This document shows, in pieces, positions 101 to 45,405 of a stretch of 64,000 nt of DNA. Below the pieces are notes generated by a model, which was given only the letters and a program-made list of their open reading frames with translations, made no database searches and was not told where the DNA came from. The stretch is taken from contig NZ_JAMQJY010000003.1 in assembly GCF_023703085.1 (NCBI RefSeq), forward strand, positions 124,001 through 188,000. The letters run 5' to 3'. How positions within the stretch are numbered: position 1 is the stretch's first letter; the number at the start of each line of letters is the position of its first letter. Both the position numbers and the translations under genes were made by a program. This DNA is from Alkalicoccobacillus plakortidis (lineage in GTDB: Bacteria; Bacillota; Bacilli; Bacillales; Bacillaceae_D).

Positions 101-184
101 GCGGGAATTCGGGTGGGATACTCGCGGGTATCCTTTCTCCTCACACGGGTAACGACGCTTTCTCGCGGGTTTCTACTCTCCCCT
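101..184. repeat. Short degenerate 41-bp-period array (family A)
   Basis: About four half-units headed by CGGGTA can be aligned: GGGTATCC..., GGGTAACG... and GGGTTTCT..., with complete units of 21 and 20 nt. The head and the alternation match the large array at 27545-27912, so this is a decayed relative 27 kb away. A reading frame runs through it into cwlK, but it has no ribosome site and is not protein-like. It lies about 70 bp after the terminator at 3-30. Confidence 0.6.
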
Positions 185-280
185 AACATAATTTTCAAGA
201 ATCGTTCAGTATTAAAATCTGCTAATCTACGTTACAATAGACGAAGTTTCGACAAAAATCAGAAAAAGGAGTTTCATAGA

Positions 281-853
281 ATGAAAGCAAAAATAGGAAT
301 AGCTCTTTCTTGGGGATTCATCCTACTTACCTTATGCCTCTTTCTAGTGATTCTCTATCAGGAGAAACAACTAGATGGTCCGCACGAAGCCTTCGCAAAA
401 GGTGACGAAGAAAGCGAACCTCCAACTGATCTTCATCCTGTTGTCGCCGAAAAGGCAGATGAACTTGTTGAAGAAGCAAAGAAAAAGGATATTCAAGTCG
501 TCATTACAGACGATTTTCGTACAATAGAAGATCAGGATTCTCTTTATGATAGGGGAAGAGAGTCAGGAGACAAGATCGTAACACATGCCAAAGGTGGCGA
601 ATCCTATCACAATTATGGACTGGCTATAGATTTCGCCCTAAAAACCGATGATGGTGATGTGATCTGGGATCTTAACTACGATGGAAATGATAACGGAGAA
701 GCCGATTGGATGGAGGTTGTCGCCATAGCCAAGGATCTAGGTTTCACATGGGGTGGCGACTGGACAAGATTCAAAGATTATCCGCATTTACAAATGGACT
801 TTGGATATAGCATTAATGAATTACAACGTGGATATTATCCAGCACACGAGTAG
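281..853 (+). CDS. cwlK: Peptidoglycan L-alanyl-D-glutamate endopeptidase, CwlK-like (peptidase M15)
   Basis: This 190-residue membrane-anchored or exported cell-wall hydrolase is predicted to cut the L-Ala-D-Glu bond of peptidoglycan stem peptides. A hydrophobic N-terminal segment covers roughly residues 5-27. The M15 zinc-site signature is present: His about 110 and Asp about 117 in SYHNYGLAIDFA, then WGGDW and His about 169 in DYPHLQM. The body closely resembles Bacillus CwlK, including the DLNYDGNDNGEADWMEV stretch. The start at 281 is chosen because AAAGGAG lies just upstream; the open frame continues to base 41, but that part is repeat-derived sequence. The gene stands alone and converges with the sirtuin gene. 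Confidence 0.88.
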   Translation: MKAKIGIALSWGFILLTLCLFLVILYQEKQLDGPHEAFAKGDEESEPPTDLHPVVAEKADELVEEAKKKDIQVVITDDFRTIEDQDSLYDRGRESGDKIVTHAKGGESYHNYGLAIDFALKTDDGDVIWDLNYDGNDNGEADWMEVVAIAKDLGFTWGGDWTRFKDYPHLQMDFGYSINELQRGYYPAHE

Positions 854-878
854 AGAGCTTTTTTAAAAAACCTCTCTA
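851..878. terminator. Bidirectional terminator between cwlK and the sirtuin gene
   Basis: The near-perfect palindrome TAGAGAG...CTCTCTA encloses TTTTTT/AAAAAA. It overlaps the last bases of both convergent genes, so it can act in either direction. Confidence 0.6.
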
Positions 879-1603
879 CCTAATTCAAGTATAGTTTCAC
901 TCAGATCGCCATGAATTTTACATGAAAACAAGGAATCCATCACAGTTAGTTCCCTATTTACAATTGCTGCTGGAATTCCGCAGTCATACACGGCGTACTC
1001 AGGCAAAAGATTAAAAGGACTTACTTGTAATGATGTACCCAACGTAATCAAAAGATCGCTAGACTGCACACATCTCTCTGCCTCGTTATGTTTTAGAATC
1101 GGGTCACCAAACAGAACAATATCTGGTCTCACAATTGATCCACAACTCACATTTATACAATGAGGTACGTCCTCTTTCAAAATTTGGTCAAAAGATACTT
1201 TGGTTCCGCACACAGGGCAAGAGGCGGTATCTAGCGATCCATGATACTCAATAATTTCTCTGCTACCGGCTGCCTTATGTAGACCATCTACATTTTGAGT
1301 GATGACAAAGATGTTTTTCTTTATCTTCTCAAGGTCCTTAATAAAAGTATGAACTGCGTTCGGCTCATAATTCTGTAATAGCTTTATTCGAAAGATCTCT
1401 TTATACTTTTTCCAAAAATCAATTGGATTCTTTGAAAAATAACGATTCGACATATAGTACTCTCGCGAACGGTCTTCCATCCATAATCCATTTGCAGATC
1501 TAAAATCAGGAATTCCACTCGCAGTTGAGACACCTGCACCAGTTAAAATCGTGATGGCCGAAGCACTTTGAATCATTTCGGCTAACCTATTAACATCTGT
1601 CAT
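863..1603 (-). CDS. srtN: NAD-dependent protein deacylase, Sir2 family (sirtuin)
   Basis: A 246-residue protein predicted to remove acetyl groups from lysines using NAD+. The Rossmann signature GAGVSTASGIPDFRS is near residue 22, the catalytic motif TQNVDGLH lies in the middle, and EYHGSL follows. The zinc ribbon consists of CPVCG and CINVSCG (C-x2-C ... C-x4-C). GTSLQVSPFNLLP closes the NAD site. The length is normal for bacterial CobB/SrtN. The start is supported by GAGGGG about 8 bases upstream. The gene is monocistronic. The deacetylase family is clear; the substrates (acetyl-CoA synthetase in Bacillus) are not shown by the sequence. Confidence 0.93.
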   Translation of the reverse strand: MTDVNRLAEMIQSASAITILTGAGVSTASGIPDFRSANGLWMEDRSREYYMSNRYFSKNPIDFWKKYKEIFRIKLLQNYEPNAVHTFIKDLEKIKKNIFVITQNVDGLHKAAGSREIIEYHGSLDTASCPVCGTKVSFDQILKEDVPHCINVSCGSIVRPDIVLFGDPILKHNEAERCVQSSDLLITLGTSLQVSPFNLLPEYAVYDCGIPAAIVNRELTVMDSLFSCKIHGDLSETILELGREVF

Positions 1604-2029
1604 ATTTCGATCCCCTCTCTCTGATACTATGTTTTCTTATTATAACAAATAGTTATACACCTAAAATTGTGATGGCTTTTAACATGGTGAACCATCTGGC
1701 ATGCTTGGGGAAACCCTTATTTCCCAATATAACGAGATCATTCATATTCAAGAGCTTATGCCTAACTAAAAAGGATAAAATACCTAGCAAAAACCCACAT
1801 GATATATACCTTATCTTAAATTTCCATTAACACACTTCAATAGACTTGATTCCCCTATTTATTCCAATATATTTCTTGATAATAGCGTGATTGCTTGCTA
1901 CAATCGCCTTACATAAGAGATTAGACCTAATAGTAAACCATGTTTTTCCCAATAGAAAAACACCATAATCATCTCCAAATTAACTGATTTTGCTTTATAA
2001 TGAAAACTATAGACACGGGTTGGTGAAGC
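1604..2029. other. Intergenic region between divergent sirtuin and regulator genes
   Basis: This 426-bp AT-rich stretch holds the two divergent upstream regions. A TATAAT box occurs at about 1996-2001, about 30 bases before the regulator start, without a convincing -35 partner. I see no gene, RNA or repeat here. Confidence 0.5.
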
Positions 2030-3274
2030 ATGGAATTTGGACCTATTATCAAATACTACCGTTTAAAAAGCGGAATTACACAAGCAGAACTAGCAGACGG
2101 AATTTGCTCGATCCCTCACTTATCTAAGATTGAGAACAACGCATACAGCGTGAACAAAGAAACAGCATCTATGCTAATGGAAAGACTTGGCCTTGATATT
2201 AATGATGAGGTAGAGCGATATGGGATTTTAACTGAGCAATTAGAAGAGTTCTCAGATGCTATTTTTTATTACGATTTTGAAAGATCAAATCAATTAAGAA
2301 CTCTTATTGAAAGTGAAGAAGATTATTATAACCGTACCAACCTAGTTAACCTATATCATATCTACTTAGGTAGATATTACTTACAAAAGAACAAAAATGA
2401 TATAGGTAATGAACACATTAAAATTATTGAAAAAAACCGGACAAATCTTTCACCTTTAGAAGATCTATTGTATCAAAATTTAATAGGTGTTTACCTTGCT
2501 GTAGAAGGTAAAACACACGAATCAATCAATCATTTTTTAAGATTAAAAGCGAACAGTAACAATGTCACAGTTCAAGAGCTATCTTATAATCTAGCATTAA
2601 ATTTCACAAAACTAGGTCAATATGAAAAATCAATACCTTATGCTCAAGAAGCGTTACAACTTTTTAAAGATAGAAACAACTACATACGGATAATTCACAT
2701 CCAAATGATTTTAGCAATCAATTATGAGAATATGCACCTTTTTGAAGAATCTAAAAATGTTTACAGAAATCTTCTGAGAAACGCTCGCTTGCTTAATCAA
2801 ACTGACATCTACTATAAACTACTTCATAATTTTGCACTTTTATTAAAATCAAATAACATCTACTCTAAAGCTAGTGAGTATTTAAAAGAGTGTGTAGTTT
2901 ATTATAAAAACCTTCCAGATTTAAAGGAAAAAAATGAAGATCTACTTATTACCCTTACCGCTCTTGTAGAAGTACTTTTGGAAATGAATTCAAAAGATGA
3001 AGAAATAGAACTTTATCTAGAAGAAATAGAATATTACATTGAAAAAAGTTCTTCAAAACTTAATAAACTTCAAGCAAAAAAATTAAAATTCGGTTTTGAA
3101 AATAGTGAAAAATATTATGCATTTTTAGATAAAGAATATATTCCTTATCTACAAAAAAATGATATGTATAGTTATTCAAAACCCGCACTCCTTGAAATGG
3201 CAAAATGGCATAGTGAGAATAATCGTTCTCAACTGTCTAATAAATTCTATCAACAATACATTGAACTATATTAA
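2030..3274 (+). CDS. Peptide-responsive transcriptional regulator, HTH + TPR (RRNPP / PlcR-NprR-like)
   Basis: A 414-residue cytoplasmic regulator. Residues 5-60 form a Cro/CI helix-turn-helix (IIKYYRLKSGITQAELADG, then HLSKIE). The rest is a helical TPR-like superhelix of the type that binds a re-imported signalling peptide in the PlcR, NprR and Rap families. A small gene with a signal-peptide-like start follows 13 bases after the stop, the usual place for the cognate pheromone, and a subtilisin gene lies convergent beyond it. A paralogue of nearly equal length sits at 22100-23338, also next to a subtilase. The inferred role is cell-density control of exoprotease production; the target promoters are not proven by sequence. 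Confidence 0.82.
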   Translation: MEFGPIIKYYRLKSGITQAELADGICSIPHLSKIENNAYSVNKETASMLMERLGLDINDEVERYGILTEQLEEFSDAIFYYDFERSNQLRTLIESEEDYYNRTNLVNLYHIYLGRYYLQKNKNDIGNEHIKIIEKNRTNLSPLEDLLYQNLIGVYLAVEGKTHESINHFLRLKANSNNVTVQELSYNLALNFTKLGQYEKSIPYAQEALQLFKDRNNYIRIIHIQMILAINYENMHLFEESKNVYRNLLRNARLLNQTDIYYKLLHNFALLLKSNNIYSKASEYLKECVVYYKNLPDLKEKNEDLLITLTALVEVLLEMNSKDEEIELYLEEIEYYIEKSSSKLNKLQAKKLKFGFENSEKYYAFLDKEYIPYLQKNDMYSYSKPALLEMAKWHSENNRSQLSNKFYQQYIELY

Positions 3275-3287
3275 GGAGGTGTTAAGA

Positions 3288-3429
3288 TTGAAAAAAGCTA
3301 TATTAGCAAGTACATTACTAATTGTACTTGCCTTAGTCGCATCACAAACAGATGTCTCACAATCATATCTAGCATCTTTCGAATTGCTTTCGGGCCCATA
3401 TTTACCTCCTGATGCTAGACCAAGCATAA
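3288..3429 (+). CDS. Probable signalling-peptide precursor of the adjacent regulator (frameshifted near its end)
   Basis: TTG at 3288 follows a perfect TAAGGAGGTG ribosome site that overlaps the regulator stop. The product begins MKKAILASTLLIVLALVAS, a Sec signal or export segment, and ends in a proline-rich tail LLSGPYLPPDARP. As written, the frame has no stop before the terminator and runs into the convergent subtilisin gene. If CCAAGC at 3420-3425 is read as CCAGC (the change that repairs eight other genes here), the frame ends at once: ...DARPA, then TAA TAA, giving 46 residues. PapR/NprX-like precursors have this size, layout and position. The exact mature peptide is not known; the C-terminal tail is the likely candidate. 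Confidence 0.68.
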
Positions 3430-3430
3430 T

Positions 3431-3461
3431 AAAAAAACTCTCCTTCACGGAGAGTTTTTTT
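3431..3461. terminator. Bidirectional terminator between peptide gene and subtilisin gene
   Basis: The stem ACTCTCC / GGAGAGT has a TTCAC loop and is flanked by A-runs and T-runs. It can end both the rightward regulator-peptide transcript and the leftward subtilisin transcript. Confidence 0.85.
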
Positions 3462-3468
3462 ATTATCA

Positions 3469-4585
3469 TTACCTACCAATTGCCGCTTCTGCATCTACCA
3501 ATCCACTTCCGAAGAATTCTTCGTTTCCTAGTGGTGTGGCGGTTTCTTGCAGGATCTGGCCGATTTCTTCAGCTGATGCTGCTGGGTTGGTGGCTTGTAC
3601 TAGTGCGGCTACGCCTGCTACGTGTGGAGAGGCCATTGAAGTTCCGCTCAGTTCTGTGTATTCTCCTCCAATGTACGTACTAAGTGTATCTACACCTGGT
3701 GCGGCGATGTTGTTTTCTGGTCCGAAGCTAGAGAAGCTAGCTTTGTTATTTGATGAGTCAACGGCTGCGACTGAGATCACATTGTCATAGGCTGCTGGGT
3801 AACCGATTCCTCTTGTTCCTGAGTTACCTGCTGCAGCGATTAGTAGTGTTCCTTGTTCTTCTGCATAATCTGCTGCTTGCTCTAATACTGGTGATCCTGT
3901 TGGTCCTCCTAAGCTGAGATTGGCGATATCTATGCCTTGATCAGCTGCCCATTCAATTCCGGCTGCGATGTCACTTGTATAACCGCTACCAAAGCTATCT
4001 AGTACTTTTACTGCATATAATTCGGCATCCGGTGCTACTCCAATGACACCTACTGTGTTATCTAATGCAGCAATCGTACCTGCTACATGTGTACCGTGCC
4101 CGTTAAGATCTTCATAGGTTGGTTCAGTGCTAACAAAACTTTCTCCACCTACTACGTTCAAATCCTCATGTTCAGCAATACCTGTATCAATAACTGCTAC
4201 AGATGCGCCTCCACCAAAGTTACCTGCCTCATGTACAGCTTGGTGCATTTACTTGTGGTATGCCATAAGGTACTTCTTGTAATGTCGTCATCTTCACGTC
4301 TTTTTCAACATATTCAACCGAAGCCTGTTCTTCAAGGGCTGCTGCCTCTTCCTCCGACAGTTCGGCATTAATAACTGGTAAATTCTCATACTCTCTTAAA
4401 ATTTCTACGTCTACTTGGCTTTCAAGTGTTTCTGCCTGGGTTGAAAAAGTAGCGGCATCTGCTTCTTCTTTAAATCCAATCAGATACCTTTCTTTCGCTT
4501 CTTCGGCTCCAGCAAGTGCCGGTATTGCTGAGAGTGTTACCAATACGGATAAACCAACCGTCCATTTGCCTGCTTGAAATTTCAT
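3469..4585 (-). CDS. aprE: Alkaline serine protease, subtilisin (frameshifted in this sequence)
   Basis: A secreted S8 protease, about 371 residues once repaired. ATG at 4585 follows AGGAGGGG. It has a signal peptide (to about residue 27, ...ALAGAEEA), an I9 propeptide ending near YVEKDV, and a mature enzyme starting near QEVPYGIPQVNAP. The catalytic Asp is in VIDTGI, His in [10 protein letters not shown], oxyanion Asn in AAAGNSG and Ser in GTSMASPH. The mature part resembles savinase-type alkaline proteases. The frame breaks at 4238-4243, where GCTTGG on the + strand replaces an expected GCTGG; removing one base gives NAPAVHEAGNFGG. Adjacent to a quorum-type regulator and peptide gene. I regard the break as an artefact or a very recent event. 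Confidence 0.88.
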
Positions 4586-4884
4586 GAAACCCCTCCTAGT
4601 AGTTTGCCAAACTGTTTCTGGCTTGTTACCAACCCTAACAAAATTCGACTTAGCTGAGTATTGGGAAAATTCAAATGTAGCTTGTATCATTTTTGAATAA
4701 AATAAACAACCTACATACGTGTGTCTCGGCTATTTTCCTAGTACTTCAGACTGATTTTCGCATTTAATGAAGAGATTCGGTTTTATTTTGGATCAAATTG
4801 GAATACTGAGTGATTCATTCTGTGTCTTTTGTGTGATAAACTACGAGGGATTGGATATTATTTATACATAGTGGGAGATAAAAT

Positions 4885-11806: not shown

Positions 11807-12550
11807 ATGATTATTAGACAAAAAGAGAAGCAAATTGAATGCATCAAACAACATGACCATGCACATATATCAGGAGAAATCGCTACGCATTGGCGCGAAG
11901 TCGTTGATCCCGACGTAGTATTCGGAATCTATGAACATGACCGTGCGTGGATTCCATTGGATGAGGTCGTCGAAAAAGACGCAGACCAAGATATGCCTTA
12001 CGATTTTATTTCATATCCTCTCACACCTAAACTAACAGCCTATACAAATGGTGTAGATGAAGTTCAGGAACAATCTGCCTACGCAGCATTACTCTGTAGC
12101 AAGCACTATTGTTCATTCTTCACAGGATCAATCACATCAGAGCCTGGGGTTCAAACCTTTCTTGATCAAGAGCAACAGAGGCAAGAATCACTACTCAAGA
12201 AAATAGATTTGAAATCTACCTCCAAGAAACTTGCGGAGCACTTTAAGCTACTTCAATTTTGTGATGACCTCTCACTCTATATCTGTATGAATCAGCCGGG
12301 TATCCCAAAATCAGAAGAAGTATCATGGTTCAAAGATGGTTTCACACAACCTTTTTCATTTGCACCATCTGGCATAAAAGCAGAATGGATAAACGAAACC
12401 GACATTAAACTGGAACCCTTTCCTTTCAAAGAACCAATCACCATCTCATTTCCAGTATATGAACTACCAATAACCGGAAACCTGAAACTAAACGGAAAAT
12501 TGGAATTGGAAAAGCTCTCTACTTATACACAAACCGTTGTTTTGCGGTGA
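11807..12550 (+). CDS. DUF3891 family protein
   Basis: 247 residues, soluble. Features typical of DUF3891: HDHAHISGEIATHW at residues 15-28, EHDRAWIPLDE, and a middle HYCSFFTG stretch. Two His and several acidic residues could bind a metal, but no activity is known. GGGGGA lies before the ATG, 25 bases after the transglutaminase-like gene, so it is the last gene of the amidoligase-type operon. Confidence 0.75.
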   Translation: MIIRQKEKQIECIKQHDHAHISGEIATHWREVVDPDVVFGIYEHDRAWIPLDEVVEKDADQDMPYDFISYPLTPKLTAYTNGVDEVQEQSAYAALLCSKHYCSFFTGSITSEPGVQTFLDQEQQRQESLLKKIDLKSTSKKLAEHFKLLQFCDDLSLYICMNQPGIPKSEEVSWFKDGFTQPFSFAPSGIKAEWINETDIKLEPFPFKEPITISFPVYELPITGNLKLNGKLELEKLSTYTQTVVLR

Positions 12551-12636: not shown

Positions 12637-12656
12637 GCCGCTGCGGCTGCGCTTTG

Positions 12657-12819
12657 GCAAGAGGGATGGTGCTTTACCAAGAGCTTTTCCGCTCTCATCA
12701 AGAGGTCTGATGCTTCTCCAAGACCTTTTCCTCTCCTATCAAGAGATCACACGCTTCTCCAAGACCGTGTTCCTTCCACCAAGTGATCACACACCTTACC
12801 AAGGCCTTCTCCCCTCCTC
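12657..12819. repeat. 41-bp-period intergenic array (family B)
   Basis: About eight half-units beginning CAAGA, with lengths 20, 21, 20, 21, 20, 20, 20 nt and a truncated end. On the other strand the heads read CTCTTGGTAAAG and CTCTTGATAGG, matching the arrays at 39139-39515 and 43657-45405. It lies exactly between the terminators of two convergent genes. Stop codons and lack of ribosome sites argue against coding. Confidence 0.75.
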
Positions 12820-12827: not shown

Positions 12828-12869
12828 AAAAAACCAAGCAGACATCAATTGATGCCCGCTTGGTTTTTT
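12828..12869. terminator. Bidirectional terminator
   Basis: AAAAAACCAAGC / GCTTGGTTTTTT stem at the 3' end of the leftward hydrolase gene, overlapping its last codons. Confidence 0.85.
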
Positions 12870-13726
12870 AGATAGTTTGCAATTAGTTGATTCACAATAT
12901 CGGGTTGCTCGTGGTTCACCCAGTGGGTTGCTTCGCCAACGAATGTGAGAGTTCCGTCCTCACAATGCTCGATACTTTTTTTAGCAAGTTTTTTTGATAA
13001 GAAGGGGTCGTTTACTCCCCAGATCATTCGTGTTGGGACTTTTACTTTTTCGGGTTGGGTGAATCCTTCGGGTATTCCGGCACGGATTGCTCGATACCAG
13101 TTTAGCATCGCTGTCATTGCACCGGGTTGGGACCATGCTTCTTTGTATTGCAAAAGATCCTCTTGGCTAAAGGCGCTGCTCTTGCTTGCAGATAGCTTAA
13201 TTCCTTTAGCCATACCATCAAAATGGTCAGCCGAAAGAAGTTTTTCTGGCCATTCTGGAAGCTGAAAAAATGCCATATAGGAGCTCCGTAGCCATTGAAG
13301 CGGCAACGTTAGCATGGCTTTTGGCATAATTGCTGGATGTGGAATATTAATTGGAATCAGTGTCTCCACATACTCAGGGCGTGTAGATGCTAGATGCCAG
13401 GCTACGGCCCCTCCCCAATCATGTCCAATAATATGAGCTTTTTCACGATTATACAGTTTTATTAAACCAATAATGTCGTCTCTTAAAATATCAAGAGTAT
13501 ACTGCTCAATTCCTTCTGGCTTTTGGCTTTTATTAAAGCCTCGTTGGTCGGGTACAAGTACGCGATACCCGGCTTCTGCTAATGGTTTGATCTGGTTTCG
13601 CCAGCCATACCAAAACTCGGGAAATCCATGCAATAAAACAACCAGTGGGCCATTCCTCGGACCTGCTGTAACGGCATGAAGGGTCATTTTATTTGTCTTA
13701 ACCAGTTGAAATTCCAATTCAGTCAT
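12845..13726 (-). CDS. Alpha/beta hydrolase, epoxide-hydrolase-like (YfhM-like)
   Basis: 293 residues, no signal peptide. Alpha/beta fold motifs: oxyanion HGFPEFW near residue 33, DQRGFNKSQKP, the nucleophile Asp in GHDWGGAVAW near residue 101, a late acidic residue in WGVNDPF, and catalytic His in ATHWVNHEQP. Asp as nucleophile and HGFPE fit epoxide hydrolases or dehalogenases rather than esterases. It resembles Bacillus YfhM, a stress-induced hydrolase. It lies downstream of mqnB-mqnD on the same strand, with a 66-base gap. The substrate is unknown. Confidence 0.82.
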   Translation of the reverse strand: MTELEFQLVKTNKMTLHAVTAGPRNGPLVVLLHGFPEFWYGWRNQIKPLAEAGYRVLVPDQRGFNKSQKPEGIEQYTLDILRDDIIGLIKLYNREKAHIIGHDWGGAVAWHLASTRPEYVETLIPINIPHPAIMPKAMLTLPLQWLRSSYMAFFQLPEWPEKLLSADHFDGMAKGIKLSASKSSAFSQEDLLQYKEAWSQPGAMTAMLNWYRAIRAGIPEGFTQPEKVKVPTRMIWGVNDPFLSKKLAKKSIEHCEDGTLTFVGEATHWVNHEQPDIVNQLIANYLKNQAGIN

Positions 13727-26157: not shown

Positions 26158-26691
26158 ATGAAGCGTACCCTTTCGTTCGTTATTAAGTCTTTTTTGGGGC
26201 TCCTATGCTTGGGTGTAGCCTTTCTTTTTATTCAAAGTCAGCAACAGAGTCAACAAACGCCAAATCTATTTGGTTATTCAGCCCTAACAATTCTTTCAAA
26301 TAGTATGCAGCCGGAATTTAGCGAAGGAGATGTCATCGTCATTCAGCAGACATCATCAAGTGATCTCGCTACAAATGACATCATTACCTTTGGAACAAAA
26401 GACGGTAATCGTGTCACACACAGAATTACAGATACGATGGATCAAGATCAAAATCGTTTTTTCACTACTAAAGGTGATAACAACAATGTAGCTGATGCGG
26501 AGCCTGTTTTTGAAGGACAAGTGATCGGCAAGGTACTCTTTTCCATTCCAAAGCTCGGATTCGTTGCTAGATTTTTATCTGAACCGATTGGTTTTATGCT
26601 GTTAATTGTTTTACCACTAGTAGCATATGTCGGCATCACAGTATATGAACGGCTCTCAAAGCCAACTAAAAAAGAGGAGGCATTTAAATGA
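26158..26691 (+). CDS. sipW: Signal peptidase I, SipW (ER/archaeal) type
   Basis: 177 residues. One N-terminal and one C-terminal membrane segment flank the protease domain. The Ser nucleophile is in ILSNSMQPEFSEGDVI and the His of the SipW/ER type is in GNRVTHRI, in place of the usual bacterial Lys; GDNNNVADAEPV follows. ATG at 26158 is preferred over 26149 because AGGAGG is 11 bases upstream. Its stop overlaps the camelysin start (ATGA). In Bacillus, SipW processes TasA and similar fibre proteins, matching this pair. Confidence 0.92.
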   Translation: MKRTLSFVIKSFLGLLCLGVAFLFIQSQQQSQQTPNLFGYSALTILSNSMQPEFSEGDVIVIQQTSSSDLATNDIITFGTKDGNRVTHRITDTMDQDQNRFFTTKGDNNNVADAEPVFEGQVIGKVLFSIPKLGFVARFLSEPIGFMLLIVLPLVAYVGITVYERLSKPTKKEEAFK

Positions 26692-27401
26692 AAAACGTAA
26701 AAAAAGCATTACTCGGAACAGCATTAGCAGGTGCATTGGTACTCGGAGCAGGGTTTGGATCTTACTCTTGGTTCACATCTGAGATTCAAGCAACTGGACA
26801 ATTAACAACAGGCACACTTGAAATTAATAATGGGAACGATATTGAAGAGAACATTGTAAACTACAATGGCTTTGCTCCATCAAACCTAGTATTTGGAGAT
26901 TGGCTAACCATTGAAAATACAGGTAGTATGGATACAAACCTTGAAGTCCAATTCTCGCATGAACTCGATCAAAATGTAGATATCTCATCTTTCAAAGTTG
27001 GATACATAGCGATTAAGTATACCATCCAACCAAGTAGAGACGTATTAGAAGCAACCCAATTAAAACTTCAGGATCTATTTGATGGCGTGACAAATGAAGT
27101 AGAGACACAAGCGGCTATTGCAGAGATTACAAATGACGCAGAAATTGTCAGTGGCTTTGTTGAAGCACCTGCTTTTAGAGCATTTAGTGATGGAGCTGTC
27201 AACACAGGCGGTTTCTTGCTTGGAGATGGCGCTCTGTCTGGATCAACTAATGAATTCTGGCAGCTTGATGAAGCTCAATACATTGACCTAAATTTCGGTG
27301 TAAAGCTTGATGAAAACGCAGGAAACGAATATCAAGGCTTAGCTTACTCAGCTACTCTAGACGTAACTGCCAAACAAACGGATGATGGTGCTGAAAAGTA
27401 A
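26688..27401 (+). CDS. calY: Camelysin/TasA-family secreted fibre protein
   Basis: 237 residues. Signal peptide KKALLGTALAGALVLGAG..., then the family hallmark SYSWFTSE and TTGTLEI. The mature domain is acidic and beta-rich, as in TasA/CalY biofilm fibre subunits. It is translationally coupled to sipW, its likely processing peptidase. M73 family members were named metalloproteases, but a structural matrix role is better supported. The operon ends at a strong terminator. Confidence 0.87.
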   Translation: MKNVKKALLGTALAGALVLGAGFGSYSWFTSEIQATGQLTTGTLEINNGNDIEENIVNYNGFAPSNLVFGDWLTIENTGSMDTNLEVQFSHELDQNVDISSFKVGYIAIKYTIQPSRDVLEATQLKLQDLFDGVTNEVETQAAIAEITNDAEIVSGFVEAPAFRAFSDGAVNTGGFLLGDGALSGSTNEFWQLDEAQYIDLNFGVKLDENAGNEYQGLAYSATLDVTAKQTDDGAEK

Positions 27402-27466: not shown

Positions 27467-27544
27467 TTAATATGAGAACGGATTGGTACCAGTCAGCGTT
27501 ACTAGGGGTCTAGAATTGGAATGATTTGATGGTATGTCTCTGGT

Positions 27545-27912
27545 GGCGCGGGTATTCGCTCTTCTCCGGCGGGTATGGCCCTGCTCTCGCGGGTATTTGC
27601 CCTACTCTCACGGGTATGGCTCCACTCCCGCGGGTATTCGCTCTTCTCTCGCTGGTATAACTCTGCTCTCGCGGGTATTTCCTCTTCTCCCACGGGTATG
27701 GCCCTGCTCTCGCGGGTATTTGCCCTACTCTCACGGGTATGGCTCCACTCCCGCGGGTATTCGCTCTTCTCTCGTTGGTATAACTCTGCTCTCGCGGGTA
27801 TTTCCTCTACTCCCACGGGTATGGCCCTTCTCTCGCGGGTATTTCCTCTACTCCCGCGGGTATGCCCCTGTTCTCGCGGGTATTTGCTCTTCTCCCACAG
27901 GTATCTCCGCCA
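27545..27912. repeat. 41-bp-period intergenic array (family A) with 123-bp higher-order repeat
   Basis: About 18 contiguous half-units of form CTCTCGCGGGTAT followed by 7-8 variable bases, lengths alternating 21 and 20. Six half-units repeat almost exactly: the block starting GGGTATTTGCCC at 27591 recurs at 27714, a 123-bp step. Because 123 is a multiple of 3, long open frames exist on both strands (up to about 128 codons), but they have no ribosome sites and mirror each other. It lies between convergent genes, after the calY terminator. Confidence 0.88.
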
Positions 27913-28042
27913 TTATTTAATTTGTAAGTAGATAGAGTTGTTAGAGGCATATTATCAAAGTACTAGATAGTGAAGCTGCGCATTTACGCATCCTCGCAAG
28001 ATTCCCTCTCCCATTACAGTAGTAGAGTCTCCACCAATTCCC

Positions 28043-28145: not shown

Positions 28146-29183
28146 CTATTTACCTATCTTCTCTGAGACTAGGAGTCTCAACACATCTGCCGTTTGTTCA
28201 ATATCAACTCTGCTTACATCATAATGTGTAACCAAACGCACAATTGTTGGAGCAAATGGATTAGCAAGGACTCCGTTTTCTTTTAGGAGCTCAACAAACT
28301 GCTTTGAGGTTAAACCCGTCTCAGAGACATCCATCATGACGATGTTCGTCTCAACTTCGAAAGCAACTCGTAATTGCGGAAGTGCATGTATTTGCTCTGC
28401 TAGCCACTTTGCATGCTGATGATCTTCGTCCAATCGGTCAACCATTTCTGTAAGAGCGATGATGCCAGGTGCAGCAAGTACACCGGATTGACGAAGCCCT
28501 CCACCTAAACGCTTTCTCCATTTTCGTGCTTTTGCAATAAACTCGCTACTACCTGCAATGATCGACCCTACAGGTGCTCCAAGTCCTTTTGACAAACAGA
28601 TTTGAACCGTTGTCACATATTGCGTAAAATCAGTCATTGGGCGCTTTAAGGCTACAGCAGCGTTCATTAGTCTGGCTCCATCTAGATGCACAGGAAGATG
28701 ATGCCGCTTTGCTACTTCATAAATTTCTTTCATACTCTCAGGAGTTGTGACAGTACCTCCGGCTCGATTATGAGTGTTCTCCAAACAGATTAATCCCGTT
28801 TCAGCTTCATGGATATCAGATCCTCGAATAGCTGCTTCAATATCTAATGCATTCATTGATCCACGTTCCCCTTTTATCGGGAAAGGCTGAATACCCGCAA
28901 AAGCCGAGGTTGCTCCACCTTCATAGCGAAAAATATGCGAGCCTTCTTCTAGAATAATTTCCTGACCTAACGAACAATGCACCAAAACGGCAATCTGATT
29001 TCCCTGAGTCCCACTTGTGACAAAAAGGGCTTCTTCTTTCCCAAGCATGTCAGCTGCTAGTTCTTCCAATTTACGCATGGTTGGATCATCTCGATATACA
29101 TCATCTCCAACCTCTGCCTCATACATCTTCTGTCTCATCCGGTCTGTCAGCTTTGTTACTGTATCACTGCGAAGATCAATCAT
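28146..29183 (-). CDS. ltaE: Low-specificity L-threonine aldolase
   Basis: PLP enzyme splitting threonine or allo-threonine to glycine and acetaldehyde. 345 residues, usual for the family. It starts MIDLRSDTVTKLTDRMR; LDGARLMNAAVAL carries the PLP-ring Asp, and CLSKGLGAPVGS the Schiff-base Lys. GGGGTG lies before the ATG. The gene is alone between array A and the SDR gene. Confidence 0.9.
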   Translation of the reverse strand: MIDLRSDTVTKLTDRMRQKMYEAEVGDDVYRDDPTMRKLEELAADMLGKEEALFVTSGTQGNQIAVLVHCSLGQEIILEEGSHIFRYEGGATSAFAGIQPFPIKGERGSMNALDIEAAIRGSDIHEAETGLICLENTHNRAGGTVTTPESMKEIYEVAKRHHLPVHLDGARLMNAAVALKRPMTDFTQYVTTVQICLSKGLGAPVGSIIAGSSEFIAKARKWRKRLGGGLRQSGVLAAPGIIALTEMVDRLDEDHQHAKWLAEQIHALPQLRVAFEVETNIVMMDVSETGLTSKQFVELLKENGVLANPFAPTIVRLVTHYDVSRVDIEQTADVLRLLVSEKIGK

Positions 29184-38270: not shown

Positions 38271-39011
38271 TTAAGACTGGAGAATTGTTTGTATATACTT
38301 TGATCCAAGCTCAGAATCAGTAATCACCTCATCAAGCTCATTAAGCTCTGCAAATTTCATTAAACCAACTTGTTCAAATTTTGTAGAGTCAGCAAGCAGC
38401 GTCACGTATTTCGCCCGCTTAATAACTGTGCTTTTCCAGTCATAGTGAAAACTATTTAAGACAGACAAACCTTGAGTAATTGAGACTCCTGCTGTTCCAA
38501 GAAATAACCGATTCACATATAGGTGAGATAATGCCTCTATTGTTTGTTTACCAAACAACGAGGTCGTTGCCCCAAGCTGAGAGCCTCCAAGCATCGTTAA
38601 TTGAACATTCTCTTTCGCATACAAATTGTGCGCAATCTCAATATCATTCGTGATGACCGTGACCGGAAACTCACCTAATAATTCAGCTAACGCATACGTT
38701 GTACTACCCCCATCCAATAAAATCACTTCGTTTGGAGTAATCATCTTTAATGCTTCTAAAGCAATATCTGATTTTTTATTCTGATGACTAGATTGTCGTT
38801 CCTTCTCAGGAAACAGTCGTCTTGTATCCTTACGTAACACCGCCCCGCCATGGACACGTTGTAATAAGTTCCGCTTTTCGAGCTCTTCTAAATCAAGGCG
38901 AATCGTTTTCTCAGTTACCTTTAGCAACTCACTTACAACAGATACCTTTAGCGCTTTATGTTTGTTTAAATAGGCCAATAACTTTTCATGGCGTTCTAAT
39001 GGTAACATCAT
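38271..39011 (-). CDS. DeoR-family transcriptional regulator
   Basis: 246 residues. N-terminal winged HTH (ERHEKLLAYLNKHKALKVS, VTEKTIRLDLEELEKRN, VHGGAV), then the DeoR sensor domain with LLDGGSTTYALAELL and VITNDIEIA that bind phosphosugars. GGGGATA lies before the ATG pair. Placed just upstream of uxaC on the same strand; likely controls uronate genes, by context only. Confidence 0.85.
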   Translation of the reverse strand: MMLPLERHEKLLAYLNKHKALKVSVVSELLKVTEKTIRLDLEELEKRNLLQRVHGGAVLRKDTRRLFPEKERQSSHQNKKSDIALEALKMITPNEVILLDGGSTTYALAELLGEFPVTVITNDIEIAHNLYAKENVQLTMLGGSQLGATTSLFGKQTIEALSHLYVNRLFLGTAGVSITQGLSVLNSFHYDWKSTVIKRAKYVTLLADSTKFEQVGLMKFAELNELDEVITDSELGSKYIQTILQS

Positions 39012-39138: not shown

Positions 39139-39515
39139 GTAGGAGCTTCGGCGCTGGTATCAAGCGCGGGGCTTCTTTAGTAAGAGCTTCAGCTCGCTCA
39201 CCAAGCTCGGGGGGCTCCTTTACTAAGAGCTTTGGCGCGCTCACCAAGCTCGAGGCTCCTTTAACAAGCGCTTCGGCGTAGTCACCAAGCGCAGGACTCC
39301 TTTACTAAGAGCTTTGGCGCGCTCACCAAGCTCGGGGCTCCTTTAATAAGAACTTTGGGGTGGTCACCAAGCGCGGGACTCCTTTAGCAAGAGCTTCGGC
39401 GCACTCACTAAGCGCGCGGCTCCTTTACTAAGAGCTTTGGCGCTCTCACCAAGCGCGAGGCTCCTTTACCAATCGCTTCGGCTCGCTCACCAAGCGCGAG
39501 GCTCCTTTACCAAGA
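39139..39515. repeat. 41-bp-period intergenic array (family C)
   Basis: About 18 contiguous half-units: 21-mers AAGAGCTTTGGCGCGCTCACC-like alternating with 20-mers AAGCGCGAGGCTCCTTTACC-like, with one 22-nt unit. On the minus strand the heads are CTCTTAGTAAAGGAG and GCTTGGTGAGCG, related to the array at 43657-45405. Frequent TAG/TAA exclude coding. It lies between two same-strand genes, near the terminator at 39545-39598. Confidence 0.87.
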
Positions 39516-39613: not shown

Positions 39614-40619
39614 TCATTCAACAAATTGCATATCAACCATTTTTTCATAAGAGTATGGTTTGTCATGGATGCCTGTTTTCTTTAAGACATCCATAGTTTT
39701 TGCTAATGCTTCTTCTGTAATGATTCCATCCTTGCTCCAGTGTTCATCTGCGTATGCTCTATTCTGAGTTGCTTCTATTTGCTCGTCGCTCAATGTTGGG
39801 AATTCCGTGCGTAGTACTTCTTCTGCTAATTCGGGATCCTCATAAACGGTTTCAAGTCCACGAAGGACGGCTTGCACAAATCCTTCAACTAATTCTGGCT
39901 CTTCTTCAATAGTAGATTGTTTTACACTGATGACTGAGTATGGGTAATCTCCAAGTGACGGGAATCCGAAAAATGGTTCTTCCCACACACCCTTATTGAT
40001 TCCTTCTGTAATTGTAGGTTCTGCTCCGTTTGCTATTTGTGATTTGCCTTGTTCTACTAATGCAAGAACGGCCGTAACATCGGTTGGTTCTTCTAGGATG
40101 ACATCTTCTTCTAAGTCAATTCCAAGGTCGATAAACAATGATCTTGTCAGTAGGTTTGGGCTTCCTCCATAACGGCTCGCCGCAATGTTTTTTTCTTTTA
40201 TAAATTCAGCAAGAGCCTCATCGCTATCATCTACTGGCTGCTCTCCTTTTTCGGCCATTAGATACACATTCGCTCGGTTCACGACATTTGCTACCGCTAC
40301 AATCGGATCACTGCTTCCATCATTTGCAAGTTCATTTGAGTCAGGACCAAGCGATATTTCCCCATACCTCACCACTGACTAGTGTTGTAACATGTGCGCC
40401 ACCTGCAGCAGTCACCATTTCTACTTCTAGTCCCTCTTCTTCAAAATAGCCTTCATGTATCGCAATATATAGAGGCAGATACCCCGTTAGATGAGCCGGT
40501 TCGGCAATCGATACTTTCTTCATTTCTTCCTCATTACCACCACTACACCCAGCTACAATCAAGCCACAAATAATGGCTATCACCATGCCTACTTTCACCT
40601 TCCACGTTTGTGTTCGCAT
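39614..40619 (-). CDS. ABC transporter substrate-binding lipoprotein, NitT/TauT (NMT1-like) type (frameshifted)
   Basis: About 334 residues after repair. Lipoprotein signal ends LIVAGCSGGNEEE. The binding fold begins VSIAEPAHLTGYLPLYIAIHEG-like, with GYFEEEGLEVEMV. The frame breaks at 40347-40352: GCTTGG on the coding strand for expected GCTGG; dropping one T gives WGNIAGPDSNELA and the full C-terminal half (NRANVYLMAEKG, ISVKQSTIEEEPELV). ATG at 40619 follows AGGAGG. Last gene of an ATPase-permease-receptor operon. The ligand could be a sulfonate, nitrate-like anion or thiamine precursor; no riboswitch helps to choose. Confidence 0.82.
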
Positions 40620-41448: not shown

Positions 41449-42226
41449 CGCCTTCACCTCCAACCTCCTCCTTTTCCTCTTGAGCGAGTAAATTATAGAG
41501 AGTGCGTTTCATATCAAGAAATTCATTTGTTAGTAATACGTCTCGTGAACGAGGACGCTCAAGATCGACTGATAGAACAGCCTTTATTGACCCTGGTCTT
41601 GCGGAAAGAACATAAACCGTATCAGACAAGAATAAGGCTTCATCAATATCATGGGTTACAAACATAATAGTTTTCTCAACGTCCGCCCACATCCTTAATA
41701 ACCAGGATTGCATTTGCCCTTTAGTCTGAGCATCTAGTGCTGCAAAAGGTTCATCTAAGAGCATGATGTCAGCATCAAATAAAAATGTACGCAATAGAGC
41801 AGCACGCTGCCTCATGCCTCCCGAGAGCTCATTTGGGAAATGGTTCTCAAATCCCTTTAACCCGTATCGTTCTAATAAGGGCATCGCTTGTGCAATCGCT
41901 ACTTTTTTTGTTATTCCTTTGATCTCAAGTCCAAGGATGATGTTTTGAATGATCGTTCTCCAAGGTAAAAGTAGGTCTTTTTGCAACATATATCCGACCT
42001 GCCCATTTCGATTCAATATACTAACGCCATCAACTAACACATCTCCTGATGATGGTCTTGTTAGTCCAACGATGATATTAAAAAGCGTTGACTTTCCACA
42101 TCCACTTGGCCCTACCACGCTGACAAACGTTCCTTTATCTATTTCAATACTTGTTGGTTTAAGTACCTCAGTTATTTTCCCATCCTTTTGAAACGATTTC
42201 CCTACCTCTTTAATCTCAAGTTTCAT
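41420..42226 (-). CDS. ABC transporter ATP-binding protein, NitT/TauT type
   Basis: About 268 residues. Walker A GPSGCGKST, Q-loop YMLQKDLLLPWRT, signature LSGGMRQRAALLR, Walker B IMLLDEPFAALD, switch His in FVTHDIDEA. ATG at 42226 lies 6 bases after GGAGGTG; a GTG 9 bases upstream is inside that site. First gene of the importer operon; its end overlaps the permease start by 29 bases. The C-terminal tail (EEKEEVGGEGDEPEENGG) is unusually acidic. Confidence 0.9.
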   Translation of the reverse strand: MKLEIKEVGKSFQKDGKITEVLKPTSIEIDKGTFVSVVGPSGCGKSTLFNIIVGLTRPSSGDVLVDGVSILNRNGQVGYMLQKDLLLPWRTIIQNIILGLEIKGITKKVAIAQAMPLLERYGLKGFENHFPNELSGGMRQRAALLRTFLFDADIMLLDEPFAALDAQTKGQMQSWLLRMWADVEKTIMFVTHDIDEALFLSDTVYVLSARPGSIKAVLSVDLERPRSRDVLLTNEFLDMKRTLYNLLAQEEKEEVGGEGDEPEENGGR

Positions 42227-42462
42227 GTAGCTCACCTCCTCCTGAGAAACGAATGCTTGTATCGTTTAATCATAAGCGTAGTCTCTTTTTCAGGTGTTTT
42301 ATCCTATGCAAATACCCTCGATAAATGAAGACTTTATTTAAAAATAAGCATGTACTTTGTCATATTTACTAACTATGTGAGCAGAATAATTGCGGATGAG
42401 TGAATATATAACTAAACTGATCAAAGTTACTTAATTTATAAATTGAAAGAAGGACACTGAAA

Positions 42463-43575
42463 ATGAACTCTGCTTATACATCGCTTTTTAAACCATTTAC
42501 TTTTAGAAGTGGATTAGAAGTAGATAACCGGATTATGGTTGCACCAATGACGCATTATAGCTCTAATGGGGATGGAACAATCTCTGAGCAAGAATTACCA
42601 TATATATCAGCTCGATCTGAAGGCCCAGGTGTCGTTATTACCGCTTGTGCAAACGTAACAGCTAACGGAAAAGCTTTCCCTGGTCAACCAGGAATTAACG
42701 ATGATGCTCATATACCTGGCTTAAAACAGTTAGCAGAAGCCATTCATGAAAAAGGTTCAAAAGCCGTTATTCAGATTCATCATGGTGGTGTGGAATGTCC
42801 ACCTGAATTAGTTCCAAATGGAGATGTTCTTAGTGCAAGTGATCTACCTGAGAGAGGTGCACGTGCTCTAACAGACGAAGAAGTTAAAGAGGTTATTACT
42901 GGATTTGGGGAAGCGACTGCAAGAGCGATCGAAGCTGGATTTGATGGCGTGGAAATCCACGGAGCAAACGGCTATCTCATTCAACAATTCTTCTCTCCAC
43001 ATACCAACAAGAGAACAGACGCGTGGGGTGGAGAAACAGCAACTGATCGATTAGCATTTCCTTTGGCAATCGTTGACGCTGTAAAAAAAGTAGTTGCTGA
43101 AAAAGCTCCAAAAAACTTCCTGGTTGGCTATCGCTTTTCACCTGAAGAACCAGAAACTCCAGGACTAACGATGGAGGATACATTTGTTTTAGTAGACGCA
43201 TTAGCGGAGAGTCAGCTCGATTACCTTCACGTCTCTCTGATGGAAGCTCATTCTAAAGCACGTAGAGGTGCCGATGAAACAAGAAGTCGATTAAGTCTAC
43301 TTCATGAGCGTGTTGGCAAATTAATTCCATTGGTTGGCGTAGGCTCCGTTCACACACCAGAAGAAGCAGTGTCAGTACTCGAAGAAGGAATGGACTTTGT
43401 CGCGTTAGGAAGAGGATTACTAATCGAACCAAACTGGGTTAATTTAGTTAAAAATGGCGAGGAAGCTCATATACAAACAGTTATCAAAGTCAGCGAGAAA
43501 GAGAAATACGTTTTACCTGATCCCTTATGGAATGTCATCATGAATGCCGGTGGTTGGGTACCATTTGAAGAATAG
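42463..43575 (+). CDS. NADH:flavin oxidoreductase, old yellow enzyme family (YqiG-like)
   Basis: 370 residues, FMN-binding TIM barrel. RIMVAPMTHYSSNGDG near residue 25, HGGVECPP with the substrate-binding His region, EIHGANGYLIQQFFSPHTN (FMN and active-site signature), NKRTDAWGG, and GVGSVHTPEEA with FALGRGLL-like (here VALGRGLLIEPNW). AAAGAAGGA precedes the ATG. Reduces activated double bonds; natural substrate unknown. Monocistronic. Confidence 0.9.
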   Translation: MNSAYTSLFKPFTFRSGLEVDNRIMVAPMTHYSSNGDGTISEQELPYISARSEGPGVVITACANVTANGKAFPGQPGINDDAHIPGLKQLAEAIHEKGSKAVIQIHHGGVECPPELVPNGDVLSASDLPERGARALTDEEVKEVITGFGEATARAIEAGFDGVEIHGANGYLIQQFFSPHTNKRTDAWGGETATDRLAFPLAIVDAVKKVVAEKAPKNFLVGYRFSPEEPETPGLTMEDTFVLVDALAESQLDYLHVSLMEAHSKARRGADETRSRLSLLHERVGKLIPLVGVGSVHTPEEAVSVLEEGMDFVALGRGLLIEPNWVNLVKNGEEAHIQTVIKVSEKEKYVLPDPLWNVIMNAGGWVPFEE

Positions 43576-43587
43576 AACGAAGTGCAG

Positions 43588-43630
43588 AGGAGAAACAGAC
43601 AAATTTAACTGTCTGTCTCTCCTTTTTTTC
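43588..43630 (+). terminator. Terminator of the OYE gene
   Basis: GGAGAAACAGACA / TGTCTGTCTCTCC stem and seven T. Confidence 0.9.
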
Positions 43631-43656
43631 GTGGATGTCTTGTTAAACTGGATTAG

Positions 43657-44057
43657 CTCTTGGTGAGGCAGGGGTACTCTTGCTAATTTGTGCTTCTCTC
43701 TTGGTGCGGAGGGTTCGCTCTTGCTAGTTAACGCTCCTCTCTTGGTGCGGAGGGTTCGCTCTTGCTAGTTAACGTTTCTCTCTTGGTGCGGAGAGCTCGC
43801 TCTTGCTAGTTAACGCTTCTCTCTTGGTGCGGGGGCTCTGCTCTTGCTAACATATCCTTCTCTCTTGCTAAGGAGAGCTCGCTCTTGCTAACACATCCTT
43901 CTCTCTTGATGAAGTGAGCTCGCTCTTGCTAACACATCCTTCTCTCTTGATGCGGAGAGCTCGCTCTTGCTAACACACGCTTCTCTCTTGATGCAGAGGC
44001 TCTGCTCTTGCTAACACATCCTTCTCTCTTGATGAAGGAGGCTCGCTCTTGCTAACA
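43657..44057. repeat. 41-bp-period intergenic array (family D), left part
   Basis: Twenty half-units, each starting CTCTTG, with strictly alternating 20-mers (CTCTTGGTGCGGAGAGCTCG-like) and 21-mers (CTCTTGCTAACACATCCTTC plus T). The 21-mers change along the array from GCTAGTTAACGC to GCTAACACATCC, showing local spreading of variants. TAA and TAG abound, so it is not coding. An IS element interrupts the last unit at 44058. Confidence 0.92.
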
Positions 44058-44135
44058 TGGACCGGTTACACTTAATTAGACAGATTCTCTAAGGTCTACT
44101 AAACTGGGGTCAAACCCATAAGAGGAGAATGTCTT

Positions 44136-44426
44136 ATGACTAAAAGAAATCGTCGAATCTTTTCATCACCATTTAAAAAGCAACTTGTTCAACTATATGA
44201 GGCAGGGAAGCCTCGTACTGAGATTATTAGAGAATATGAGTTAAATCCATCTACCTTTGATCGGTGGGTGAGTCAGTTTCGCAATAGTGGTTCTTTTGAA
44301 GAAAAGGACAATCGGAGTCCTGAACAAGAAGAACTACTAAAGTTACGCAAAGAAAATCAGAAACTGGCTATGGAAAATGATATTTTAAAGCAAGCAGCGC
44401 TGATTATGGGGCGAAAATCCGAGTAA
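44136..44426 (+). CDS. IS3-family transposase OrfA
   Basis: 96 residues. N-terminal helix-turn-helix (FSSPFKKQLVQLYEAGKPR, YELNPSTFDRWV) and a C-terminal leucine-zipper-like coiled coil (EELLKLRKENQKLAMEND). AGAGGAGAATG precedes the ATG. T TTA AAG at 44384-44390 is a canonical -1 slippery heptamer in this frame; slipping there enters the OrfB frame and yields the OrfAB transposase. Without slipping, OrfA ends at 44426. Confidence 0.9.
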   Translation: MTKRNRRIFSSPFKKQLVQLYEAGKPRTEIIREYELNPSTFDRWVSQFRNSGSFEEKDNRSPEQEELLKLRKENQKLAMENDILKQAALIMGRKSE

Positions 44427-45262
44427 TTCAACAGAACCGGCATAAATACTCTGTCACTGATATGTGCGCTGTTCTTAAGCTTCCAAGAAGCACGTTTTAT
44501 TATGAGGCCAAACAACCGTGCAAAAAGGAAGAAGAGGCCCTTAGGGCCTTGATTACCGAGATTTTTCATCAGAGTAGACAGTCTTTTGGTCAGCGCAAAA
44601 TTAAAAAAATGCTTGAGAGAAGAGGCTGGCAAGTCTCTCGACGACGTATTGGACGAATCATGAAAGAAAAAGGGCTCGTTTCGAAATATACCGTTGCCCA
44701 ATATAAACCGACTCGGAGTCCGTCTAACGAAGCCAGTATTGAGAATGTGTTAGATCGACAGTTTAAACAAGAACAAGTGCTCAAAGTCGTCGTGAGTGAC
44801 CTGACTTATGTACGCGTGAAGGACAAGTGGCATTATATTTGCATCATCATTGATTTATATAATCGAGAAATTATTGGCTATAGTGCTGGACCGAATAAGG
44901 ACGCAGCTCTGGTTCAACGCGCCTTCGCCTCGATTCCTTACAACCTTCATAAACTTGGAATGTTTCATACAGACCGAGGTGGAGAATTTAAGAACCACCT
45001 CATCGAGGAAGCTCTTTCGACGTTTAGTATTGAGAGATCATTAAGCCATAAAGGAACGCCCTACGATAACGCTGTCGCAGAAGCAACATTTAAAGCAGTT
45101 AAGACGGAGTTTGTCTCAGGTCAGATCTTCTCTAGCCAACAAGAACTTGATCTCGCTTTATTTGATTTCGTCCATTGGTTTAACCATGTTCGTATTCATG
45201 GATCTCTTAACTATTTAACACCGGAAGAATACAAAGTCACGCACCTTAAGGAATTTGTCTAG
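44381..45262 (+). CDS. IS3-family transposase OrfB (DDE catalytic domain, made by -1 frameshift)
   Basis: The frame is open from 44381 and has an internal ATG at 44462. It contains HTH_21 (DMCAVLKLPRSTFYYEAK, FGQRKIKKML), then the retroviral-integrase-like core: Asp in VVSDLTYVRV, Asp in HTDRGGEF, Glu in AEATFKAVKTE, with the family tail FVHWFNHVRIHGSLNYLTP. All three acidic residues are intact, so the element may be active. Confidence 0.92.
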   Translation, partial: YFKASSADYGAKIRVIQQNRHKYSVTDMCAVLKLPRSTFYYEAKQPCKKEEEALRALITEIFHQSRQSFGQRKIKKMLERRGWQVSRRRIGRIMKEKGLVSKYTVAQYKPTRSPSNEASIENVLDRQFKQEQVLKVVVSDLTYVRVKDKWHYICIIIDLYNREIIGYSAGPNKDAALVQRAFASIPYNLHKLGMFHTDRGGEFKNHLIEEALSTFSIERSLSHKGTPYDNAVAEATFKAVKTEFVSGQIFSSQQELDLALFDFVHWFNHVRIHGSLNYLTPEEYKVTHLKEFV

Positions 45263-45280
45263 TTTAGTGTTGACATACCA

Positions 45281-45405
45281 ACACATCCTTCTCTCTTGAT
45301 GAAGGAGAGCTCGCTCTTGCTAACACACCCTTCTCTCTTGATGAAGTGAGCTCGCTCTTGCTAACACACCTTTCTCTCTTGCTAAGGAGGGCATGTTCTT
45401 GCTAA
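45281..45405. repeat. 41-bp-period intergenic array (family D), right part
   Basis: Continuation beyond the IS: remainder of the split unit (ACACATCCTTCT), then about five CTCTTG half-units (one of 21 where 20 is expected), decaying at about 45400 into ordinary sequence. Confidence 0.88.

Follow-up and report, generated by a model that had tools for sequence, protein, structure and literature searches.

The 64-kb window analysed here (G000:C3:124001-188000) is part of contig C3 (389 kb) of the 4.37-Mb draft genome of Alkalicoccobacillus plakortidis, which comprises 9 contigs, and its intergenic DNA holds tandem arrays of half-units of about 20.5 bp, each made of a short conserved head and a spacer. 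A sequence-only reading of the window had proposed such arrays, and direct reading, Tandem Repeats Finder and autocorrelation place them at the positions it gave, with the four large ones on a 41-bp (20+21) grid. Tandem Repeats Finder assigned periods of 41, 82 or 123 to 12658-12818, 27547-27904, 39143-39515, 43657-44057 and 45280-45405. The autocorrelation of the window rose to 0.55 or above at five places only, with best lags of 41, 82 or 123, and never exceeded 0.49 in three composition shuffles. A further short and degenerate run with CGGGTAT-type heads (family A; 101-184, plus strand, 3-4 half-units) is marginal: a hand count gives it steps of 21 and 20, and no tool or scan flagged it.

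Three of the four large arrays lie between convergent genes, as had been noted. Array B (12641-12819, minus strand, CTTGGT/CTTGAT heads) separates the genes at 11807-12550 (+) and 12845-13726 (-), and an array of the same family occupies the matching site in A. porphyridii. Array A (27545-27912, plus strand, CGGGTAT heads) lies between the genes at 26688-27401 (+) and 28146-29183 (-); it has a 41-bp unit and includes a 123-bp duplicated block, and a second CGGGTAT array is present in the same genome at G000:C1 about 2601700. Among named organisms, the protein encoded at 26688-27401 has its closest relatives in A. murimartini (95% identity), A. gibsonii (86%) and A. porphyridii (79%). Overlapping open reading frames (ORFs) of 104, 128 and 118 amino acids cross array A on both strands (27502-27931) and are probably spurious, like many of the gene calls that fill databases. 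Array C (39139-39515, minus strand, CTTGGT/CTTAGT heads) has co-directional neighbours at 38271-39011 (-) and 39614-40375 (-). Array D, downstream of the gene at 42463-43575 (+), counts as convergent when an insertion sequence within it is ignored. The stretch 43657-45405 had been read as contiguous; the array is there, but it is a single array split by an IS3-type element (44058-45280, plus strand, 1223 bp) into a left part (43657-44057, plus strand, CTTGGT/CTTGCT/CTTGAT heads) and a right part (45281-45501, plus strand) whose final half-units are degenerate. The two parts are in phase, the head phase being continuous once the element is skipped. The ends of the element agree at 18 of 27 positions, it has a 3-bp (ACA) target duplication, and both of its ORFs (44136-44426 and 44462-45262) carry transposase domains, HTH_Tnp_1 and rve.

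A motif-blind scan for periods of 14-60 was applied to 1.76 Mb from five Alkalicoccobacillus genomes (those of the four species named above and G024). It took in contig C3 and A. porphyridii contig C22 whole, together with other DNA partly picked for its arrays, so that the densities obtained are not genome averages. Among 76 non-coding periodic regions, 74 are on a 20-21, 40-41 or 62-nt period if 31 is counted as half of 62: 20 (6 regions), 20.5 (33), 21 (1), 31 (4), 40 (3) and 41 (27), with one region each at 15 and 18. Coding periodic regions have codon-multiple periods in 16 of 17 cases, the remaining one being 40.5; this division is favoured by the procedure, in which ORFs lying mostly inside regions of non-codon-multiple period were discarded as spurious before classing. 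A coding origin of the arrays was rejected, because periods of 20.5, 41 and 62 are no multiples of a codon, whereas those of nearly all the coding regions are. On C3, where a shuffled copy gave zero matches at equal threshold, the matches with less than half coding overlap have periods of 20, 20.5, 21, 40 or 41, and those with more have periods of 15, 18, 21, 24 or 30, plus 90328 (20.5) and 279874 (41), whose ORFs we judge to be spurious. Thus one step rule is common to different sequences, as first suggested, and the scan found further families in the same genome: there are at least six head types on C3, including CTTGGTa, CGGGTAT, CTATCGTTT/CCATCGCTCC, CGCGCA, the ATACTTCGGTTAA type and CTACATGCGG, and in addition a 20-bp CTCATCCTTGATTCC array. 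The CTTG family accounts for 43 of the 70 scan regions with flanking genes; the other 27 have different heads or are coding-like.

In the CTTG family, a pattern of three heads spaced 20-21 nt matches the five genus genomes 762 (A. plakortidis), 215, 376, 1247 and 201 times, compared with 5, 9, 4, 3 and 9 for the reversed pattern; in 17 named outgroup genomes, a count without locus L019, it matches 3-20 times against 1-60 for controls, with a modest excess in some Shouchella (20 vs at most 2). Distances from CTTG to CTTG on C3, unconditioned on arrays, peak at 20, 21, 41, 61/62, 82, 102/103 and 123. A set of 69 arrays with at least five heads was assembled from the five genomes, and 3 at stretch edges were dropped to leave 66; inside these, 1064 of 1122 head distances of 16-25 nt are 20 or 21, the arrays having themselves been found with the 20/21 rule. 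Mean steps are 20.51 in A. plakortidis, 20.69 in A. gibsonii, 20.41 in A. murimartini, 20.67 in G024 and 20.63 in A. porphyridii, which corresponds, assuming two turns, to 10.2-10.35 bp per turn, and the suggestion that the half-unit step is close to two helical turns stands. Alternation of 20 and 21 is seen in A. plakortidis (109 of 129 step pairs on C3 and 298 of 357 in all its arrays examined, in chains admitting single steps of 20/21 only), but it does not hold throughout the genus: in A. porphyridii, A. gibsonii and G024 the mean step is about 20.65 and many neighbouring steps are 21+21. The A. plakortidis unit is a 41-bp dimer, spacer identity being 0.52 two half-units apart and 0.28 between adjacent ones, and the blocks of other species measure 61 nt, 62 nt or, by visual estimate, about 287 nt. 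What stays constant is the half-unit, the block being a local duplication. The density of CTTGGTA is 12.3 per kb in arrays, 0.14 in coding DNA and 0.20 in other intergenic DNA; arrays make up 1.8% of the DNA sampled, a sample partly chosen for them. At G021:C10:114594-114891 and G022:C1:119873-120002, a 42-nt repeat of two 21-nt halves matches the CTTG pattern and looks coding by eye.

In the main family, the fixed head CTTGGTa precedes a spacer of 12-13 bp that is mostly free. Between successive 41-bp units of three A. plakortidis arrays, identity is 0.88 at heads vs 0.71 in spacers. CTTG heads are found in all five genus genomes, the block consensus differing by species, and heads and step persist at matching sites where spacers diverge: for 15 matching-site array pairs between species, spacer similarity is on average 0.036 above that of shuffled spacers, compared with 0.026 for other pairs within species and 0.020 for other pairs between species. 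The alternation of a constant with a variable part is also the structure of CRISPR arrays, a likeness judged from array structure alone. Unlike CRISPR, however, the constant part here is about 8 nt and the variable part 12-13 nt, there are dozens of arrays, and the spacers look duplicated instead of acquired, because they are related within blocks.

The class of repeats to which we assign these arrays was reportedly first described in a 2020 J Bacteriol paper. The sequence-only reading had known of no described repeat class with this rule, which was mistaken, as constant-size 20-21-nt repeats of variable sequence are described in Bacillus (Subirana and Messeguer, 2021; PMC8161180). The text of that paper reports a SATFIND search (at least 4 repeats, 60% of them equal in length +/-1) of 176 Bacillus genomes, with 781 repeats in the 20-21-nt class and 1886 in the 51-53-nt class, constant in size and mostly non-coding, with several families per genome, short conserved sequences and 40-41-nt relatives; its authors remark on the match to two turns of the helix and suggest a role with nucleoid proteins or as small RNA. 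Prokaryote satellites are surveyed in PMC6749651. The genus arrays have the 20-21-nt size or its 40-41 multiple (74/76 regions; 41/82/123 in the window), several sequence families per genome and a non-coding nature (intergenic position, periods not multiples of three), and on these three features they belong to the class as it is delineated in the text of PMC8161180. Relative to the repeats described there, the genus arrays have a CTTG head common to five species and very divergent spacers, and their convergent bias, replication orientation, block structure and filled and empty sites are measured here. The words 'convergent' and 'orientation' are absent from the main text of PMC8161180, its supplements and the 2020 description lying outside this comparison, and among the texts returned by a literature search we recognised no other paper treating either property in such repeats. 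The 52-nt repeats in the text of PMC8161180 share the constant size, variable sequence and non-coding nature, 52 nt being about five helical turns by arithmetic; their unit size differs, and the genus scan of periods 14-60 found none. The STAR elements of staphylococci (PMC3532100) are likewise intergenic direct repeats in Firmicutes, a likeness by description only.

The placement of the 66 arrays relative to genes (longest-ORF calls) is biased. The flanking genes are convergent at 32, co-directional at 28 (13 sense, 15 antisense) and divergent at 6, compared with 106, 420 and 176 respectively among 702 background gaps of at least 100 bp, array gaps included (Fisher test, convergent excess p 2e-9, divergent deficit p 0.002). 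The association with terminators noted earlier does not go beyond gene ends: terminator-like hairpins, scored with a crude detector, occur within 120 bp on either side of 24 of the 66 arrays vs 23 of 72 array-free convergent gaps.

The arrays are also oriented relative to replication. By local GC skew, calculated with the array excluded, the heads lie opposite the leading strand in 57 of the 66 (A. plakortidis 22/28, A. gibsonii 8/8, A. murimartini 6/6, G024 9/9, A. porphyridii 12/15), and by the majority strand of local genes they do so in 50; the orientation p of 1e-9 was computed as if arrays were independent, which matching sites in different species are not. On the single-contig chromosome of G024, where the change in skew was used to place the terminus at 1.95 Mb, a strict pattern has 85 matches, of which 84 were kept in 26 loci, 21 of them polar (p 0.0025); the match dropped, at 1.266 Mb, is presumed to be a coding repeat and would have scored polar. 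Orientation set by gene direction was considered and rejected: 12 of 14 C3 arrays have a same-strand upstream gene, a figure that is uninformative because convergent genes provide one for either array direction, and the co-directional arrays among the 66 divide almost evenly between sense and antisense. For the non-CTTG families polarity was judged by the pyrimidine-rich strand only, which lies opposite the leading one in 26 of 27 regions (24 of 25 when the two coding-like regions, C3:109740 and L231_2:8201, are removed) and in 40 of 43 CTTG regions, these counts leaving out the 6 of 76 scan regions that have no flanking gene. Gaps without arrays are skewed in the same direction, but weakly (mean 0.045-0.065 vs 0.248). 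Because pooled spacer composition tracks the replication strand and not the head (A 0.134 and T 0.313 in polar arrays, A 0.242 and T 0.171 in the others), the skew of the non-CTTG families may represent mutation bias instead of head polarity; of the nine non-polar arrays, only six have more A than T.

Syntenic positions gain and lose arrays. At convergent gaps shared by C3 and A. porphyridii C22, an array is present in both species at 2, in A. plakortidis only at 3, in A. porphyridii only at 4 and in neither at 6, and both of the shared sites carry the rarer orientation in both species. Where A. porphyridii alone has an array, the A. plakortidis gap measures 41, 47, 47 or 416 bp, with 48 bp at a co-directional site, and all three of the array-free A. 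plakortidis gaps that were read contain a terminator-like hairpin. Common descent of matching-site arrays was rejected: such arrays were found in several species pairs, in a comparison for which the A. gibsonii and A. murimartini stretches had been chosen for their arrays, but the whole-contig comparison was no better than chance. In A. porphyridii, the array at C22:20772 matches that at C22:29948 at 87% over 212 bp, extending into the flank past the last head; the gap at the C22:20772 site is 47 bp in A. plakortidis, 38 bp in A. murimartini and about 290 bp in A. gibsonii, where a separate autocorrelation scan made no period call. At least one array has thus been copied within a genome.

Across the order, the strict CTTG pattern occurs in 15 of 397 genomes, four of which are genus members with 27-51 matches and the other 11 have 1-3. 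Eight of these 11 were read; by eye, five hold coding repeats or chance matches, and three (G220, G256 and G077) hold 21-nt arrays or array-like sequence. G220 has TGTACCAAG about every 21 nt, G256 a near-perfect 21-nt array, and G077 a TGCACGAA head with 29 matches vs 0 for the control, a head absent from two congeners. In 18 stretches from other genera, the motif-blind scan called none of the 15 without known arrays and two of the three with them, the G220 array being missed. The three arrays in L245 and L246 also have their pyrimidine-rich strand opposite the leading one, and the G220 array, in L244, has no skew. That six-unit array (L135/L244 about 12750) stands between genes read by eye as prfB and galU; its TGTACCAAG head resembles part of what we take to be the Ter motif of replication termination sites, and the G220 genome has a weak match to the replication terminator protein (RTP).

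A fixed step, nearly free spacers and oriented heads make up the pattern that a protein on one helix face would impose, and for this reason we tentatively prefer, at something short of even confidence, to regard the arrays as helically phased DNA-binding sites for a putative protein, spread in the manner of satellites. Each half-unit of about 20.5 bp would offer a short head for recognition, in the main family CTTGGTa, and a 12-13-bp spacer of little sequence importance, and adjacent heads would face almost the same side of the duplex, because each step is close to two helical turns. The predicted protein, or related proteins with different head preferences, could bind cooperatively along the heads. 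Arrays would grow by duplication of 41- or 62-bp blocks, sometimes copied to new genome sites, and would be retained chiefly at the ends of genes and most of all between convergent ones, where the bound tract could insulate against read-through or against topological effects in the DNA.

Several considerations weigh against this arrangement. The binding protein is hypothetical, and the several head families need either several readers or one loosely specific reader. Nine of the 66 arrays face the opposite way. At the syntenic convergent gaps of C3 and C22, arrays do not co-occur beyond chance, and therefore no array at these gaps has been shown to be needed, while convergent bias and divergent avoidance are also expected of harmless DNA. 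Nor are the spacers wholly free within a species, since one of the 15 matching-site pairs (G024 L162 and A. gibsonii L114) retains similar spacers (0.69 vs 0.49 shuffled) and several A. porphyridii arrays have a common 62-bp consensus; spacers are, moreover, G+C-rich relative to third codon positions and thus not at plain genomic equilibrium.

A rival not far behind phased binding, which we hold to be possible if doubtful, is an essentially neutral self-expanding satellite whose unit length is set by the process of its birth or enlargement, e.g. by template switching or flap duplication spanning some two turns of the helix. The heads would then last as homology or cleavage points for unit copying, and arrays would survive where they are least harmful. 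Such a satellite would account for gain and loss at syntenic gaps, for the copy linking C22:20772 and C22:29948 at a site near-empty in A. plakortidis and A. murimartini, for blocks of 41, 61, 62 and about 287 nt as the product of repeated local duplication, and for the convergent bias as tolerance of harmless DNA. Drift, however, should give single-base length changes after spacers have diverged to an identity of 0.28 between neighbours, yet few steps leave 20/21; heads stay where spacers change; and several head families with one step require a length-setting process that is not known.

A more far-reaching proposal, which strikes us as rather unlikely, is that polar, helix-phased nucleoprotein tracts, arranged by replication direction along the whole chromosome, together form a distributed barrier or insulator that works one way on replication and on convergent transcription, with the head specificity of the reader changeable and the two-turn step fixed. 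If true, it would explain the published constant-size, variable-sequence repeats, 20-21 nt being two turns and 52 nt about five.

The arrays might instead act as transcribed RNA, in the form of a small RNA, a sponge or a structured 3' RNA, and their position at gene 3' ends and the 52-nt relatives that passages of PMC8625621 report to be expressed in B. coagulans would suit such a role. We consider it improbable, and a structured RNA is disfavoured: in the 30 arrays with most units neither strand shows folding beyond its dinucleotide shuffles (mean z -0.17 and -0.13, with z below -2 in only 2/30 and 3/30 arrays by strand), the window has no Rfam match, and co-directional gaps split into 13 sense and 15 antisense. 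A Rho site was likewise rejected, the head strand having no C-over-G excess (C 0.234, G 0.233). The REP/BIME elements of enteric bacteria offer a parallel for DNA-topology sites, in which curved DNA or gyrase wrapping would absorb supercoils between convergent genes. Such sites, for which the convergent bias and the helix-locked step would speak, are at least as improbable here as an RNA role, given that no periodicity of about 10 bp in A/T or pyrimidine is found inside the 66 arrays and that a fixed oriented head is unexpected for a bend site.

The oriented arrays also invite comparison with the RTP-Ter fork trap of B. subtilis. RTP (PF02334) is above cut-off in all five genus genomes, with homologues at G000:C1:410083-410415 and G024:C1:1868298-1868630; the A. 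plakortidis protein is a relative of PDB 1f4k (E 8e-29), and the G024 gene closely adjoins the GC-skew terminus. RTP and the strict CTTG pattern coincide in the family sample (4/4 genus genomes, 0/12 others), RTP not being found at E 1e-7 in the 12 sampled genomes of other family genera; over the order, 116 of 397 genomes have RTP, and the CTTG pattern is seen in few of these. The genus resembles the trap in encoding RTP and in having arrays oriented relative to replication, but the arrays differ in being chromosome-wide, with a step of 20.5 bp and without a demonstrated Ter motif. The 26 G024 loci are spread across the whole chromosome and not clustered at the terminus, none being listed at 1.66-2.38 Mb. 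The B. subtilis Ter motif, presumably GTACYAAA, is clear in G163 only; in the genus its counts are below the reversed-pattern control, and it also fails in five other RTP genomes. That the genus RTP reads the arrays, at least those of the CTTGGT family, as polar fork barriers is very improbable, and a link between them unproven, for although the head read from the other strand, TACCAAG, is similar to part of that motif, the coincidence in the family is that of a single lineage, RTP is far more widespread in the order than the CTTG pattern, the arrays keep no proximity to the terminus, and the other head families have no Ter resemblance.

Phased binding by a putative protein thus remains the reading that we tentatively prefer. 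Constant-size bacterial repeats have been published as a class without an assigned function, and Alkalicoccobacillus provides a rich case. Its defined head, phase-locked steps, nearly free spacers, replication orientation and pairs of filled and empty sites, which we did not find in the text of PMC8161180, are handles for functional tests, and the convergent placement and mostly uniform replication orientation make the role of the arrays easier to test.

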